Shown here: piece after piece, positions 28,908-34,525 of the stretch
Numbering within the stretch: the first letter of the stretch is position 1
Layout: each line of letters starts with the position of its first letter
Source of the DNA: an uncultured Rhizobiaceae bacterium
GTDB lineage: Bacteria; Pseudomonadota; Alphaproteobacteria; Rhizobiales; Rhizobiaceae
Direction of reading: 5' to 3'
Length of the DNA: 64,000 bases
NCBI GenBank assembly: GCA_947259295.1
Contig: CAMYMG010000049.1
Coordinates: forward strand, 1 to 64,000
Program-made: the position numbers and the translations under genes
The notes under the pieces: model-generated
Database searches by the model: none
The model's input: only the letters and a program-made list of their open reading frames with translations
Told to the model about the DNA's origin: nothing

Positions 28908-29684
28908 ATGTCAGAACATCGCTCAACGGCCGCTGAGGATATGGAGACCTCCTACGGTTTCCGCACTGTCGGGGCCGGCGAGAAGCAACCGCTCGTCAAC
29001 GAGGTGTTTCATAAGGTCGCCAAGCGCTACGACCTGATGAACGACCTGATGTCGGGCGGCATGCATCGCCTGTGGAAAGACGGGCTGGTGACCTGGCTCA
29101 ACCCGCCGAAGCGCGATGGCTGGAAGGTGCTCGACGTGGCGGGCGGTACCGGCGACATCGCCTTCCGCATCATCGAGGCATCGCAGCGCCACGCCCATGC
29201 CACCGTTCTCGACATCAACGGCTCGATGCTGGCCGTCGGGCGCGAGCGTGCCGCCAGGCGCAAGCTCGACGCCAACACCGATTTCGTCGAGGCCAATGCC
29301 GAGGAACTGCCGTTTGCCGACGAAACATTCGACGCCTATACGATCGCTTTCGGCATCCGCAACGTGCCGCGCATCGAGACCGCGCTGGCCGAGGCCTTCC
29401 GCGTCCTGAAGCCTGGCGGCCGCTTCCTCTGCCTCGAATTTTCCGACGTCGACATGCCGCTGCTCGACCGGGCCTATGAAGCCTGGTCGTTCAACGCCAT
29501 CCCGCGGATCGGACAGGTCGTCACCGGCGATGCCGAACCCTATTCCTATCTCGTCGAATCGATCCGCAAGTTTCCCAACCAGACAAGCTTCGCCGCGATG
29601 ATCGGCAAGGCCGGGTTCAGCCGCGTGGACTTCCGCAACTACGCCGGCGGAATTGCCGCGCTGCATTCGGGCTGGAAGCTTTGA
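28908..29684 (+). CDS. ubiE: Ubiquinone/menaquinone C-methyltransferase UbiE
   Basis: C-methylation of the quinone ring in ubiquinone synthesis. The 258 aa protein has the AdoMet motif [10 protein letters not shown] near residue 75, the UbiE block [11 protein letters not shown] near 41 and the signature [12 protein letters not shown] near 206. It is divergent from add and followed at 13 bases by ubiB, the common rhizobial pair. Confidence 0.96.
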
Positions 29685-29697
29685 CGGTCATTCAAGC

Positions 29698-31272
29698 ATG
29701 AGCAATCTGGCTGCTGGCATCCGGCTCTGCAGGGCTGGCTGGATCATGGTGCGCGAGGGCGTCGTCGCGGCGCTTCCCGGCGACCAGCTTGGCGGCCTGC
29801 CCAATCTCGGATGGCGCATCGCAAGGCTGCTGACACGGCGAAGCGCCATCCGGCGTGGCCGCAGCGACCGGCTTGCCATCGCGCTGACGCGGCTTGGGCC
29901 CTCCTATGTGAAGCTCGGCCAGTTCCTAGCGACGCGGCCCGACGTCGTCGGCAATGACATGGCGCTCGACCTCGCGCTGCTGCAGGACCGCATGGAAACC
30001 TTTCCGCGCGCGCAGGCGGTGGCGTCGATCGAGGATTCGCTCGGCCGGCCGATCGACGACCTGTTCGTCAGCTTCGGCGACCCTGTCGCGGCGGCATCGA
30101 TCGCGCAGGTGCATTCGGCCGAAGCGGATCGCGATGGCGTGCCCGAGAGGGTCGCGGTGAAGGTAATCCGTCCCGGCGTGCGCAAGGCCTTCTTCCGCGA
30201 TCTCGAGAGCTATTTCCTCGCCGCCCGCCTGCAGGAGCGATACATCCCCGCCACCCGCCGGCTGCAGCCCGTGGAAGTGGCGCGCACCCTGGCGCAGACC
30301 ACCAAGATCGAGATGGACCTCAGGCTGGAAGCGGCGGCCCTGTCCGAAATCGCCGAAAACACCAGCGAGGATCCCGGCTTTCGCGTGCCCACCGTCGATT
30401 GGGTCCGCACCGGACGCGACGTGCTGACGCTCGAGTGGATCGACGGCGTCAAGATGTCCAACGTCGAGGGATTGCGCGCCGCCGGCCACGACCTGCCTTT
30501 GATCGCCGCCAACCTCGTCCAGTCCTTCCTGCGCCACACGCTGCGCGACGGGTTCTTCCACGCCGACATGCACCCCGGCAATCTGTTCGTCGAGGCCGAC
30601 GGCACCATTGTCGCGGTCGATTTCGGTATCACCGGGCGGCTCGGCAAGAAGGAGCGGCGCTTTCTGGCCGAAATCCTCTACGGCTTCATCACCAGGGACT
30701 ACCTGCGTGTCGCCGAGGTCCATTTCGAGGCCGGCTACGTGCCGCGCACGCACAATGTCGCTGCCTTCGCGCAGGCCATCCGTGCCATCGGCGAGCCGAT
30801 CCACGGCCAGCCGGCCGAGACGATCTCGATGGCAAAGTTGCTTACCCTGCTGTTCGAGGTGACCGAACTCTTCGACATGCAGGCGCGGCCCGAACTCGTG
30901 CTGCTGCAGAAGACCATGGTCGTCGTCGAAGGCGTGGCGCGCACGCTCGATCCGGCCTTCAACATGTGGAAGACCTCGGAGCCGGTCGTCGGCGACTGGA
31001 TCGCCGGCAATCTCGGCCCGCGCGGCATCATGATCGACGCGCGCGACGGCGCCAACGCGCTCCTGTCGCTCATTCGCCAGGCGCCCGACATCGCGGCCCG
31101 GACCGAACGCCTGTCGCGCGAGATCGACGACATGGCCGAACACGGGCTGAGATTCGACAAGGCGACCACCGATGCGATCGGCAAGGCAGAGGCGCGCGCC
31201 ACCCGCTGGGGCCGTGTCGCGCTCTGGATCGGCGCGATTGCGCTGGTGTGGATCGCCATCAGCCTTTCCTGA
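29698..31272 (+). CDS. ubiB: Ubiquinone biosynthesis protein UbiB (ADCK-type atypical kinase)
   Basis: UbiB is an atypical kinase/ATPase required for ubiquinone assembly at the inner membrane. The 524 aa protein has the family K-L-G-Q motif in Y-V-K-L-G-Q-F near residue 72, the A-S-I-A-Q-V-H nucleotide-binding segment near 135, F-H-A-D-M-H-P-G-N catalytic loop near 286 and D-F-G-I metal motif near 306. A C-terminal membrane helix (about 502-522) anchors it. The ATG at 29698 is adopted since the frame upstream is within ubiE. Confidence 0.96.
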   Translation: MSNLAAGIRLCRAGWIMVREGVVAALPGDQLGGLPNLGWRIARLLTRRSAIRRGRSDRLAIALTRLGPSYVKLGQFLATRPDVVGNDMALDLALLQDRMETFPRAQAVASIEDSLGRPIDDLFVSFGDPVAAASIAQVHSAEADRDGVPERVAVKVIRPGVRKAFFRDLESYFLAARLQERYIPATRRLQPVEVARTLAQTTKIEMDLRLEAAALSEIAENTSEDPGFRVPTVDWVRTGRDVLTLEWIDGVKMSNVEGLRAAGHDLPLIAANLVQSFLRHTLRDGFFHADMHPGNLFVEADGTIVAVDFGITGRLGKKERRFLAEILYGFITRDYLRVAEVHFEAGYVPRTHNVAAFAQAIRAIGEPIHGQPAETISMAKLLTLLFEVTELFDMQARPELVLLQKTMVVVEGVARTLDPAFNMWKTSEPVVGDWIAGNLGPRGIMIDARDGANALLSLIRQAPDIAARTERLSREIDDMAEHGLRFDKATTDAIGKAEARATRWGRVALWIGAIALVWIAISLS

Positions 31273-31291: not shown

Positions 31292-31332
31292 GTGATTGCA
31301 ATGATATCAATCACCCGGAGGCATGCAATCAC
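31292..31332. promoter_or_regulatory. Three-copy half-site array (putative antitoxin-type operator) before coaBC
   Basis: GTGATTG (31292-31298) is inverted to CAATCAC (31308-31314), and a further CAATCAC (31326-31332) abuts the TTG start of the ribbon-helix-helix/CoaBC frame. The two direct copies are 18 bases apart. Such repeated palindromic half-sites are characteristic of autoregulated antitoxin operators, matching the DNA-binding fold encoded directly downstream. The ribosome site GGAGG (31317-31321) lies between copies, so binding could block translation or transcription start. Confidence 0.5.
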
Positions 31333-32769
31333 TTGGCCAGCATCACCGTCAGGAACCTCGACGCACCTGTGAAGGACCGGCTGCGCCAACTCGCGGCCAG
31401 GAACGGCGTTTCCATGGAAGAGCAGTTGCGCATGATGATCCGCGACGGCGTGGCGACAGACCCTTTATCGGGAGGCGTCGAGCCCGCCGGGTTGGGGCGA
31501 TCCGCGCAAGGCCCTGCCGAGAATGCGTCCGGAGTTTCCATGGCCGGCTCAGCCAGCCTTGCCGGTCGCCGGATCCTGCTGATCATCGGCGGCGGCATCG
31601 CCGCCTACAAGTCTCTCGATCTGATCCGCCGCCTGCGCGAGCGCGGTGCGGCGGTGCGCTGTGTCATGACGGCTGCGGCGCAGGAATTCGTCACGCCGCT
31701 GTCGGTCGGCGCCCTGTCAGCCGATCATGTGTTCACCGATCTCTTCGACCGCCAGGCCGAGCATGACATCGGCCACATAAGACTGTCGCGCGAGGCCGAT
31801 CTGATCGTCGTCGCGCCGGCGACCGCCGACCTGATGGCAAAGCTCGCAAACGGCCTGGCCAACGACCTGGCCTCGACCGTCCTGCTGGCGACCGACAAGC
31901 AGGTTGTGCTGGCGCCGGCGATGAACCCGAGAATGTGGAGCCACAAGGCGACACGCCGAAACCTGGCGACATTGCGGGGCGACGGCATCGTCTTCGTCGG
32001 GCCCAATGCCGGCGAGATGGCGGAAAGCGGCGAGGCCGGCGCCGGCCGCATGGCCGAGCCGCTGGAGATTGTCGCAGCCGTCGAGACGTTGCTCGACCGG
32101 GCGCCCAAGCCGCTCGCGGGCCGCAGGATCATCGTCACCTCCGGCCCGACGCATGAGCCGATCGACCCGGTGCGCTACATCGCCAATCGCTCCTCCGGCA
32201 AGCAGGGGCACGCCATAGCCGCGGCGCTGGCGCGGCTCGGCGCCGATGTCCGGCTGGTGTCCGGGCCGGTGTCGATCGCCGATCCGGCAGGGGTGAATAC
32301 CGTGCATGTCGAGCGGGCGGAGGAAATGCGCGATGCGGTCGAAGAGCTTCTGCCGGCCGACGCCGCGATCTTTGTCGCCGCGGTCGCGGACTGGCGCACA
32401 TCGGCATCCGCACAGCAGAAGATCAAGAAGCAGGCAGACAGCGGCCCGCCCTCGCTGCAAATGGTCGAAAACCCGGACATCCTCGCCGGTATTGGCCATC
32501 ACCGGCAGCGGCCCTACCTCGTCGTCGGCTTTGCCGCCGAGACCCAGAACCTGCTTGCCAACGCCCAAGCCAAGCTCGCCCGCAAGGGCGCCGATTTCAT
32601 CGTTGCCAACGATGTCAGCCCCGAAGGCGGGGTGATGGGCGGCGACCGGAACCGCGTCAGGATCGTATCGAAGGCCGGCGTCGAGGAATGGCCCGAAATG
32701 TCAAAAGACGCGGTTGCCGCGAAGCTGGCCGACCTGGTCGCAGAACGTCTGAAATCGGTTGAGGTCTGA
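31333..32769 (+). CDS. coaBC: CoaBC with an in-frame N-terminal ribbon-helix-helix (FitA/VapB-like) segment
   Basis: CoaBC couples 4'-phosphopantothenate to cysteine and decarboxylates the product in CoA synthesis. The frame from TTG 31333 gives 478 aa. Residues 1-40 resemble FitA/VapB antitoxin DNA-binding domains (I-T-V-R-N-L-D-A-P-V-K-D-R-L then S-M-E-E-Q-L-R); 41-70 is a linker; CoaC starts at about 76 with G-G-G-I-A-A-Y-K and includes P-A-M-N-P-R-M-W; CoaB starts near 259 with S-G-P-T-H-E-P-I-D. An ATG at 31540 (residue 70), preceded by GGAG at five bases, would give a normal 409 aa CoaBC alone. No stop separates the two parts, so fusion, dual starts or remnant antitoxin are all possible. 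No toxin gene follows. Confidence 0.92.
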   Translation: MASITVRNLDAPVKDRLRQLAARNGVSMEEQLRMMIRDGVATDPLSGGVEPAGLGRSAQGPAENASGVSMAGSASLAGRRILLIIGGGIAAYKSLDLIRRLRERGAAVRCVMTAAAQEFVTPLSVGALSADHVFTDLFDRQAEHDIGHIRLSREADLIVVAPATADLMAKLANGLANDLASTVLLATDKQVVLAPAMNPRMWSHKATRRNLATLRGDGIVFVGPNAGEMAESGEAGAGRMAEPLEIVAAVETLLDRAPKPLAGRRIIVTSGPTHEPIDPVRYIANRSSGKQGHAIAAALARLGADVRLVSGPVSIADPAGVNTVHVERAEEMRDAVEELLPADAAIFVAAVADWRTSASAQQKIKKQADSGPPSLQMVENPDILAGIGHHRQRPYLVVGFAAETQNLLANAQAKLARKGADFIVANDVSPEGGVMGGDRNRVRIVSKAGVEEWPEMSKDAVAAKLADLVAERLKSVEV

Positions 32770-32862: not shown

Positions 32863-34525
32863 ATGGTGTCACAGACCGTCCCCAAGCTGAATTCGCGCTA
32901 CGACCAGATGTTCCCGGTGCTGTCGTCGCGCGATATCGACCGCATCGCCCCTTTCGGGACGCTCACGCATTTTGCGGCCAACGAGTTGATCGTGGAGACC
33001 GGCAAGGTCTCGCCCGGCATGCTCGTGCTCCTGAAGGGGCAGGTGGCGATGACCCAGCGCGACGGGCTCGGCCACGTCAATCCGGTGGTCGACCACGGCC
33101 CGGGGCAGTTCCTCGGCGAGGTCGGTCAAACTGTCGGGCCGTGCTTCGCTGGTCGACGGCAGGGCCGATGGCTGCGAAGTCGAGGCGCTCGTCATCCCGT
33201 CGGATCGGCTGCGCGCGCTGATGGTCGCGGAAGCCGATCTCGGCGAACGCATCATGCGGGCGCTCATCCTGCGACGGGTGGGACTGATCCAGAGCGGCGT
33301 CGGCGGGCCGCTCATCGTCGGCGACGACACCATGCCGGACGTTGCCCGGCTGCAGAACTTTCTCGACCGCAACGGCTATCCGCATCACCTTGTCGATCCT
33401 GCAACCGACGAGGATGCCGCCTCGTTCGTCGCGGCTGCGCCCACCTGCCTGCGCAACCTGCCATGGGTGGTGCTGGCGGACGGCACGACGCTGCGCAATC
33501 CGGCCGAGACGGAACTCGCGCGCGCCATCGGCATGAATGCGGGCCGGTCCGGTACCGTCGTCTACGACGTGGCTATCGTCGGCGCGGGGCCGGCGGGGCT
33601 TGCAACCGCGGTCTATGCGGCCTCCGAGGGGCTGTCCGTCGCCGTGTGCGACAGCCGGGCCTATGGGGGCCAGGCCGGGGCCAGCGCCCGCATCGAGAAC
33701 TATCTAGGCTTCCCGACCGGGATATCGGGCGGCGCGCTGACCGGAAGGGCCTTCGTGCAGGCCCAGAAGTTCGGGGCGGACCTGATGATCCCGACGGCGG
33801 TGCTCAGCCTCGACTGCAGTCTAGACGACGGTTATTTCGCTATCATGGTCGACGGCGGCGAGCGCATCAGGGCGCGCTCGGTGGTGATCGCCAGCGGCGC
33901 CCGCTACCGGCGTCCGCCGATCGCGGAACTCGACCGCTTCGAAGGCAAGGGCGTCTGGTACTGGGCCTCGCCGGTCGAGGCCAAGCCGACGACCGGCCAG
34001 GACGTCATCGTGGTCGGCGGCGGCAATTCGGCCGGCCAGGCGGCAGTCTACCTCTCTGGCCTCGCGGCCAAGGTCGATGTGCTGATCCGCGGGCCCGAGC
34101 TCGCCGACAGCATGTCGCGCTACCTCATCGACCGCCTTGCCGCGACGCCCAATATCGAGCTTCACCGGCGCACCGAACTTGTTGCGCTCGAGGGTTCCGA
34201 CCGCCGCCTCGAGCGGGTACGGATGCGCGACAATTCATGCGGCCGCGAGACCGAGCGCGACATGCGCCATGTCTTTCTGTTCGTCGGCGCCGACCCCGCC
34301 ACCCAGTGGCTCGAAGGGTGCGGCGTCGGCGTTGACAAGGCCGGCTTCGTCCTCACCGGCCAGCGTGCCGGCGCCCATCTCGAGACCAGCGTGCCCGGGG
34401 TCTTTGCGGTCGGCGACGTCAGGTCGGGCTCGGTAAAACGCGTCGGCAGCGCCATCGGCGAAGGCGCGCAGGTCGTTGCCGCGCTGCATGGCTATCTGTC
34501 GGGCGCACAGCAGGCGACCGCCTGA
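32863..34525 (+). pseudogene. Cyclic-nucleotide-binding/thioredoxin-reductase-like FAD oxidoreductase, frameshifted
   Basis: Two frames together encode one known architecture. The first (from ATG 32863) holds a cNMP-binding domain (P-V-L-S-S-R-D-I-D-R-I-A-P-F and later G-Q-F-L-G-E-V-G-Q). The frame then breaks at the run of three A at 33128-33130; removing one A continues L-S-G-R-A-S-L-V-D-G-R-A-D-G directly into the second frame. The rest carries the FAD motif G-A-G-P-A-G, the NAD(P) motif G-G-G-N-S-A-G and a final G-D-V-R-S-G. The redox CxxC of thioredoxin reductase is replaced by W-A-S-P. Restored length would be about 553 aa. A sequencing error remains possible; the reductase part could start at ATG 33221. 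Confidence 0.75.

Follow-up and report, generated by a model that had tools for sequence, protein, structure and literature searches.

A FitA-like ribbon-helix-helix segment fused to CoaBC in Rhizobiales, a probable self-repressing enzyme derived from a toxin-antitoxin module

The fused frame in the window and its upstream palindrome

The window, a stretch of 64,000 nucleotides from an uncultured Rhizobiaceae bacterium (contig CAMYMG010000049.1), contains downstream of ubiB an open frame that, in the list of open reading frames, extends from TTG 31333 to a stop ending at 32769 on the forward strand and encodes 478 amino acids (Table 1). The frame consists of a FitA-like ribbon-helix-helix (RHH) segment, followed by a linker and by a complete CoaBC. 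That an RHH segment is joined in frame to CoaBC had been proposed from the sequence, and both parts were recovered in this one frame by profile searches. Residues 2-38 match PF22513 (FitA-like_RHH, Pfam) with an E-value of 5.1e-13 and 49.2 bits, above the curated cut-off of 27, which places the protein in the FitA-like RHH family. Residues 77-469 match the CoaBC model TIGR00521 (NCBIfam) over its full length with 423.5 bits, versus an equivalog cut-off of 219.7, and the Pfam matches located C-terminal of the RHH are Flavoprotein (80-251) and then DFP (261-444). A profile of the fused RHH segments found the FitA chains 2h1o and 2bsq in the PDB (E 2e-8); a PDB search with the single sequence did not find FitA and gave weak matches to designed or unrelated proteins only.

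Table 1. Features of the ubiB-coaBC region in the window, which is locus L145 in the comparison of loci
Feature	Position	Strand	Basis
ubiB, upstream neighbour of the frame	29653..31272	+	ORF
Operator palindrome TGATTGCA-A-TGATATCA (8-1-8), 17 bp	31293..31309	.	Pattern search; 11/12 consensus positions
GGAGG, likely ribosome-binding site, 11 nt before TTG 31333	31317..31321	+	Sequence
Third half-site, read as GTGATTG on the - strand (CAATCAC on the +), immediately 5' of TTG 31333	31326..31332	-	
FitA-like RHH domain, residues 1-42, TTG start	31333..31458	+	PF22513, profile, predicted helices, dN/dS
Variable, probably unstructured linker, residues 43-76	31459..31560	+	pLDDT, dN/dS, alignment
Internal ATG, non-conserved, inside the linker	31540	+	
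Complete CoaBC: decarboxylase part (Flavoprotein) and ligase part (DFP)	31561..32766	+	Pfam, TIGR00521, Foldseek
Stop codon of the fused frame	32767-32769	+	

In the AlphaFold2 model helices 11-24 and 28-41 are confident, as is most of CoaBC, and residues 42-72 have low confidence (mean pLDDT 32-36 over residues 41-70). The RHH fold requires two chains, and its strand is absent from the single-chain model. The best Foldseek match of the model is M. smegmatis CoaBC (6tgv; E 4.6e-36, TM 0.45-0.56, whole chains). An assembly artefact was rejected as the source of the fusion, which is seen again in many separate assemblies. The absence of a toxin gene from the locus, also claimed at the outset, holds: the gap between ubiB and the frame, which hosts toxin-antitoxin genes in relatives, is 60 nt long in the window and contains no PIN toxin gene, so that the adjacent toxin by which a type II toxin-antitoxin system is recognised is lacking there. 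Downstream of coaBC, ORFs 32863-34335 and 33221-34525 overlap and are apparently one broken cNMP-binding/thioredoxin-reductase-like gene (32863-34525), with a frame change, placed by eye near 33125, that may be a sequencing error or real.

Three heptamer half-sites (GTGATTG/CAATCAC) had been noticed upstream of the frame, one of them touching the start codon. They are located at 31292-31298, 31308-31314 and 31326-31332, all between ubiB and the TTG. The single heptamer is at chance frequency in the window (5 seen, 7.17 expected), but the inverted pair with its spacing exceeds chance, with 0.01 expected from shuffles of the window and 1 observed. Chance half-sites were thus rejected as an account of the spaced palindrome, on the basis of the shuffles and of its uniqueness in the genome, where the wider pattern TGATNNCANTGNNATCA occurs at one place in 4.14 Mb, the coaBC operator, and the reversed control at none. 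The consensus of this operator among the loci compared is TGATTGCA-N-TGCAATCA, with variation at bases 4 and 5 of each half, and the palindrome of the window has two mismatches versus the exact form. In many fused Mesorhizobium loci TGCAATCA, similar to the third half-site of the window, adjoins the ATG. The palindrome at fused coaBC genes may be regarded as a candidate antitoxin-type operator. A promoter-like site was looked for in the window and none was found; in relatives a loose -35/-10 pattern, permissive and used without shuffles, was matched in 68 of 75 loci examined, and in 59 of these it overlaps the operator.

Distribution and conservation of the fusion and the operator

The RHH-CoaBC fusion is confirmed as real and is not a local oddity. 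The survey of CoaBC N-termini suggested with the original prediction found it in 60 of the 230 coaBC loci examined, a sample that leans to relatives. By source, fused loci are 21 of 150 genomes of the order, which lean to near relatives because they were picked for the best E-values from 384 with a CoaBC match among 397, and 39 of 80 named loci, a proportion that is not a frequency because the RHH was part of the query by which similar loci were selected. Nor does each of the 230 loci represent a different organism, since the part of CoaBC from which the tree was made is identical in six pairs. Loci were classified with RHH and PIN models that had themselves been derived from some of these loci. 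The count of 60, like the dN/dS set, includes L099, which starts at a contig end and has half an RHH.

A search with the RHH segment matched 58 of the 397 order genomes, 24 of them in a frame of 484-523 amino acids. Genera that bear the fusion include Mesorhizobium, Zhengella, Phyllobacterium, Bradyrhizobium, Rhodopseudomonas, Afipia and Bartonella, together with a Brucella sp., and it is absent from the examined loci of Rhizobium, Microvirga and Hyphomicrobium. The class was searched as well, and of 385 genomes, which include some from the order, 81 matched the RHH. Among the matches listed there was no fusion outside the order, and a frame of about 500 amino acids with the RHH was present only in G000 and G035, which both belong to the order. 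Three frames of more than the usual length from outside the order (397, 397 and 802 amino acids) were discarded as fusions, having no CoaBC motif, and one of them is cut by a contig end. On the CoaBC tree the fused state needs at least 10-11 changes, of which the starred branches (25 of 221 inner branches) force only 1.

The contribution of selection to the maintenance of the RHH was assessed by dN/dS from pooled simple pairwise counts, which are not tree-based. In the group whose proteins start with MASITIRNL (15 sequences, from Mesorhizobium, Phyllobacterium, Zhengella, a Brucella sp. and further genomes) the values were 0.12 for the RHH, 0.44 for the linker and 0.11 for CoaC, and in the Bradyrhizobium-like group (26 sequences) 0.20, 0.58 and 0.125, respectively. 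The window belongs to neither group; for all 59 distinct sequences, with the window included, the values were 0.29, 0.69 and 0.22. The RHH is under purifying selection that is much stronger than that of the linker and near that of the enzyme. An alignment of 28 proteins shows no variation at Arg7, Leu9, Ala22, Ser27, Glu29 and Arg33 and almost none at Ser3 and Thr5, and the linker is variable in length and poorly alignable among relatives. RHH proteins insert a strand into the major groove, and residues 3, 5 and 7 would be at alternating positions of it; the DNA contacts of the fused RHH are assumed from the family.

The operator was scored at 12 fixed positions, at least 11 of which had to match, within 120 bp upstream. 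It was found in 51 of 58 fused loci, in 11 of 17 toxin-antitoxin loci and in none of 143 loci with neither, the motif having been derived from the fused loci and then counted in the same loci. Repeated upstream stretches were taken once in this count, L099 was left out and the start of coaBC genes without RHH was set by rule. There was no such match in control stretches inside genes and further upstream, and shuffles reached no more than 0.6%. When a uniform 1000 bp was scored, again leaving out L099, 64 loci have RHH and operator, 13 the RHH only, 1 the operator only (L283, a decayed module) and 151 neither. The 13 among 77 RHH-bearing loci in which no palindrome at 11/12 was found within 1000 bp are 6 fusions, 6 toxin-antitoxin loci and 1 with an RHH only; in L057 the palindrome lies 185 bp before the RHH start, outside the 120-bp range. 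In an independent-pair test the operator changed in the same way as the RHH in 1.6 (on average) of 3 well-supported pairs, in the opposite way in 0, and 1.4 had no difference; the co-occurrence is not phylogenetically secured, because the loci are related by descent and only these 3 pairs are well supported.

In genome-wide searches the exact form TGATTGCANTGCAATCA is present in 9 of 397 order genomes and always at coaBC, in 7 fusions, 1 toxin-antitoxin locus (G235) and 1 decayed module (G182). With one mismatch allowed, 36 of the 397 match (3 with the reversed pattern), 17 of them at coaBC by comparison of coordinates and 19 not tied to coaBC. These 17 include 14 of the 24 fused genomes of the RHH-segment search, and 13 of the 14 have a single operator place; the other, G352, has two, both at coaBC. 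Two genomes, G073 and G077, contain five one-mismatch places each, none at a known fusion.

Toxin-antitoxin loci at the same site

Between ubiB and coaBC, 17 of the 230 loci carry genes for an RHH antitoxin and a PIN toxin, identified by profile match; the 3 toxins tested match PF01850 with E-values of 2e-17 to 3e-14. A ubiB match is located upstream, in the stretch examined, in 17 of 17 toxin-antitoxin loci, 58 of 60 fused loci and 60 of 149 loci with neither. Most of the modules share the fused-type operator (11 of 17 at 11/12). In 14 of the 17, a possible in-frame start of coaBC (ATG or GTG) and the end of the toxin gene overlap by 4 nt; 3 of these 14 have another possible coaBC start downstream. 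Judged by these overlaps, the three genes appear to form a single operon with translational coupling. The original prediction had taken stops between the two segments in relatives as evidence against itself. Such stops are present in some relatives, but there the toxin gene sits between the segments, so that they explain the origin of the fusion and do not refute it.

The closest comparison is that of the fused locus L154 (G209) with the toxin-bearing locus L150 (G069), both of genus code g3. L150 comprises two tandem antitoxin genes, then one toxin gene and then coaBC, with a 20-nt leader located between the toxin stop and coaBC. The two loci match in one stretch (74% of 248 columns) that runs from the end of ubiB through the operator region and the first antitoxin, and in a second one (89% of 114) that begins with the 20-nt leader; hence the DNA between these stretches was lost. 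Other loci hold what may be different stages of this decay. Fused L044 (Mesorhizobium sp. B2-3-4) retains a C-terminal piece of the second antitoxin before the CoaBC start, and L103 (Aurantimonas sp. VKM B-3413, about 1991-2530) has the antitoxin gene, only the first codons of the toxin and then coaBC, apparently a toxin deletion without fusion. The decayed module of L283 (G182), in the ubiB-coaBC gap, has kept two operators and a PIN fragment and has lost the antitoxin, and the gap of L151 is empty except for half an operator at the ubiB stop. In genus code g3 fused, toxin-bearing and empty states are close together. These comparisons show, at the DNA level, the route by which toxin loss would have produced the fusion in one sub-lineage that groups with Mesorhizobium. 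For the other lineages, the window included, we only infer the same route, because an intermediate was looked for in the window and the Bradyrhizobium clade and none was found among the loci examined.

At two loci, L114 (Microvirga pudoricolor) and L286 (G293), a PIN gene lies directly 5' of coaBC without a FitA-like RHH. In L114 the upstream ORF is Phd/YefM-like, as judged by eye, and the toxin stop overlaps the coaBC ATG, an arrangement which suggests that other toxin-antitoxin families may use the same site.

Proposed self-repression by the fused protein and its alternatives

The explanation that we consider likely is that the loss of a toxin left its antitoxin fused to CoaBC and that the fused protein represses its own transcription. 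The ancestral module, composed of operator, RHH antitoxin and PIN toxin, would have occupied the ubiB-coaBC gap, its toxin stop mostly sharing bases with the start of CoaBC. Once the toxin was deleted, the antitoxin would have come to lie in frame with CoaBC, the operator being kept. Within a CoaBC oligomer the RHH domains would then pair and attach to the operator, of the type TGATTGCA-N-TGCAATCA, as well as to the additional half-sites, and coaBC would be repressed once enough protein is present, in an autogenous control like that of trifunctional PutA. Self-repression by an antitoxin-derived segment, as originally proposed, is strongly supported by the comparison of loci: the fusion is conserved, the RHH is under purifying selection, the operator co-occurs with it and antitoxin-toxin pairs occupy the same site.

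An alternative is that the antitoxin piece is an evolutionary scar, a leftover leader of CoaBC tolerated after toxin loss and without regulatory function. A linker that varies and changes length is in line with it, and so is the closeness of the three states in g3, as expected for a labile site. However, an RHH with dN/dS far below the linker's and near the enzyme's, and an operator kept across genera and nearly unique per genome where counted, make a scar rather improbable. It is very unlikely that the RHH still works as an antitoxin, neutralising a PIN toxin encoded elsewhere and thereby tying the level of CoaBC to that of the toxin. The RHH does come from an antitoxin family, L044 retains part of an antitoxin C-terminal region, and the window's genome (86% complete) has three PIN genes (E up to 0.001), all on other contigs; yet, by eye, two of the three are directly preceded by their own antitoxin-like ORF, and the region following the RHH is a variable linker in most aligned fusions, predicted to be unstructured in the window.

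The original prediction also offered two isoforms produced by the choice of initiation site, a long repressor-enzyme from TTG 31333 and a short enzyme from ATG 31540. The latter is preceded in the window by a Shine-Dalgarno-like stretch, and for the window's genome two isoforms are possible, but as a conserved feature the claim failed: among the 60 fused loci an internal ATG between RHH and CoaC is found in 12 and any internal start with a Shine-Dalgarno-like stretch in 4, the window among them, with any in-frame ATG, GTG or TTG there in 37. As an explanation of the fusion it has a shade less probability than an antitoxin acting in trans. The least probable of these alternatives is that the RHH acts in trans on other promoters, CoaBC being a wider regulator. 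RHH regulators can have regulons, and several half-sites are present in some loci, so that weaker sites elsewhere could escape the patterns used. The placement of the operator argues against it, with one place in the window's genome and, in the matching fused genomes described above, one place or, for G352, two at coaBC itself.

Autogenous repression by the RHH of an enzyme would have a parallel in trifunctional PutA, a metabolic enzyme whose N-terminal RHH is an autogenous repressor (PMC5293562, in the text available). RHH-CoaBC likewise has an N-terminal RHH on a metabolic enzyme and an operator-like site at its own gene, the likeness being functional and not one of homology. It differs in the enzyme and the pathway and in that its RHH is of the FitA antitoxin family, with toxin-bearing relatives persisting at the same locus; trifunctional PutA also has a membrane switch. 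With FitAB and VapBC it shares the RHH family, an operator before the antitoxin and, in relatives, antitoxin and toxin genes at this place, but its own locus is without toxin and the antitoxin is part of an enzyme. A regulatory role of an antitoxin beyond its own module is described for PrpA of a conjugative plasmid (available text of PMC7848731), from which RHH-CoaBC differs by covalent fusion to a biosynthetic enzyme. Like ordinary CoaBC (Dfp), it is full-length both by TIGR00521 and by fold (6tgv); it differs by the additional N-terminal domain, predicted to bind DNA, and by the operator.

The quaternary structure of the M. smegmatis enzyme suggests how such a repressor could work. According to the accessible parts of the two sources, a pair of FitA dimers is held on the FitAB operator by two toxin monomers that make no contact with the DNA (PMC3920265), and CoaBC of M. 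smegmatis forms a dodecamer whose core is CoaC (PMC7794376). If the fused protein were likewise a dodecamer, it would have twelve flexibly linked RHH units, so that the enzyme could replace the toxin as the tether, and the CoaBC oligomer may hold several RHH dimers on adjacent half-sites as the toxin does in FitAB. M. smegmatis CoaBC is also inhibited, at CoaB, by CoA and CoA thioesters (PMC7794376, same parts), which makes a link between CoA status and DNA binding conceivable. This control acts on enzyme activity, unlike the transcriptional control proposed here for RHH-CoaBC. A more speculative and rather doubtful extension is that RHH-CoaBC is a CoA-sensing repressor, which arose repeatedly because toxin-antitoxin modules made the essential coaBC their third coupled gene. 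Occupancy of the CoaB active site by CTP, 4'-phosphopantothenate or CoA thioesters would change the presentation of the RHH dimers by the oligomer, and CoA status would thereby set coaBC transcription. With coaBC as third, translationally coupled gene of the operon, only the toxin could then be lost.

By the literature searches made, with most subscription journals outside their reach, the RHH-CoaBC architecture, real and conserved, is undescribed: nothing was found linking CoaBC to ribbon-helix-helix proteins, vapBC or antitoxins, nor on coaBC transcription in Bradyrhizobium, and the titles listed by broader searches included none on CoaBC. The terms 'dfp', 'pantothen' and 'COG0452' are absent from the main text of PMC2701414, and, in the available part of PMC7794376, its authors state that there was no information on CoaBC regulation prior to the activity feedback.

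Taken as a whole, RHH-CoaBC is probably an autogenous RHH-enzyme made from a toxin-antitoxin module, and it provides a case, with surviving intermediates, in which such a module became the built-in DNA-binding domain of a biosynthetic enzyme. The essential coaBC recurrently closes a toxin-antitoxin operon to which it is coupled, and this could explain some modules that are hard to lose. Moreover, the arrangement predicts that CoA synthesis in rhizobia, among them genera that have laboratory strains, would be under transcriptional self-control.
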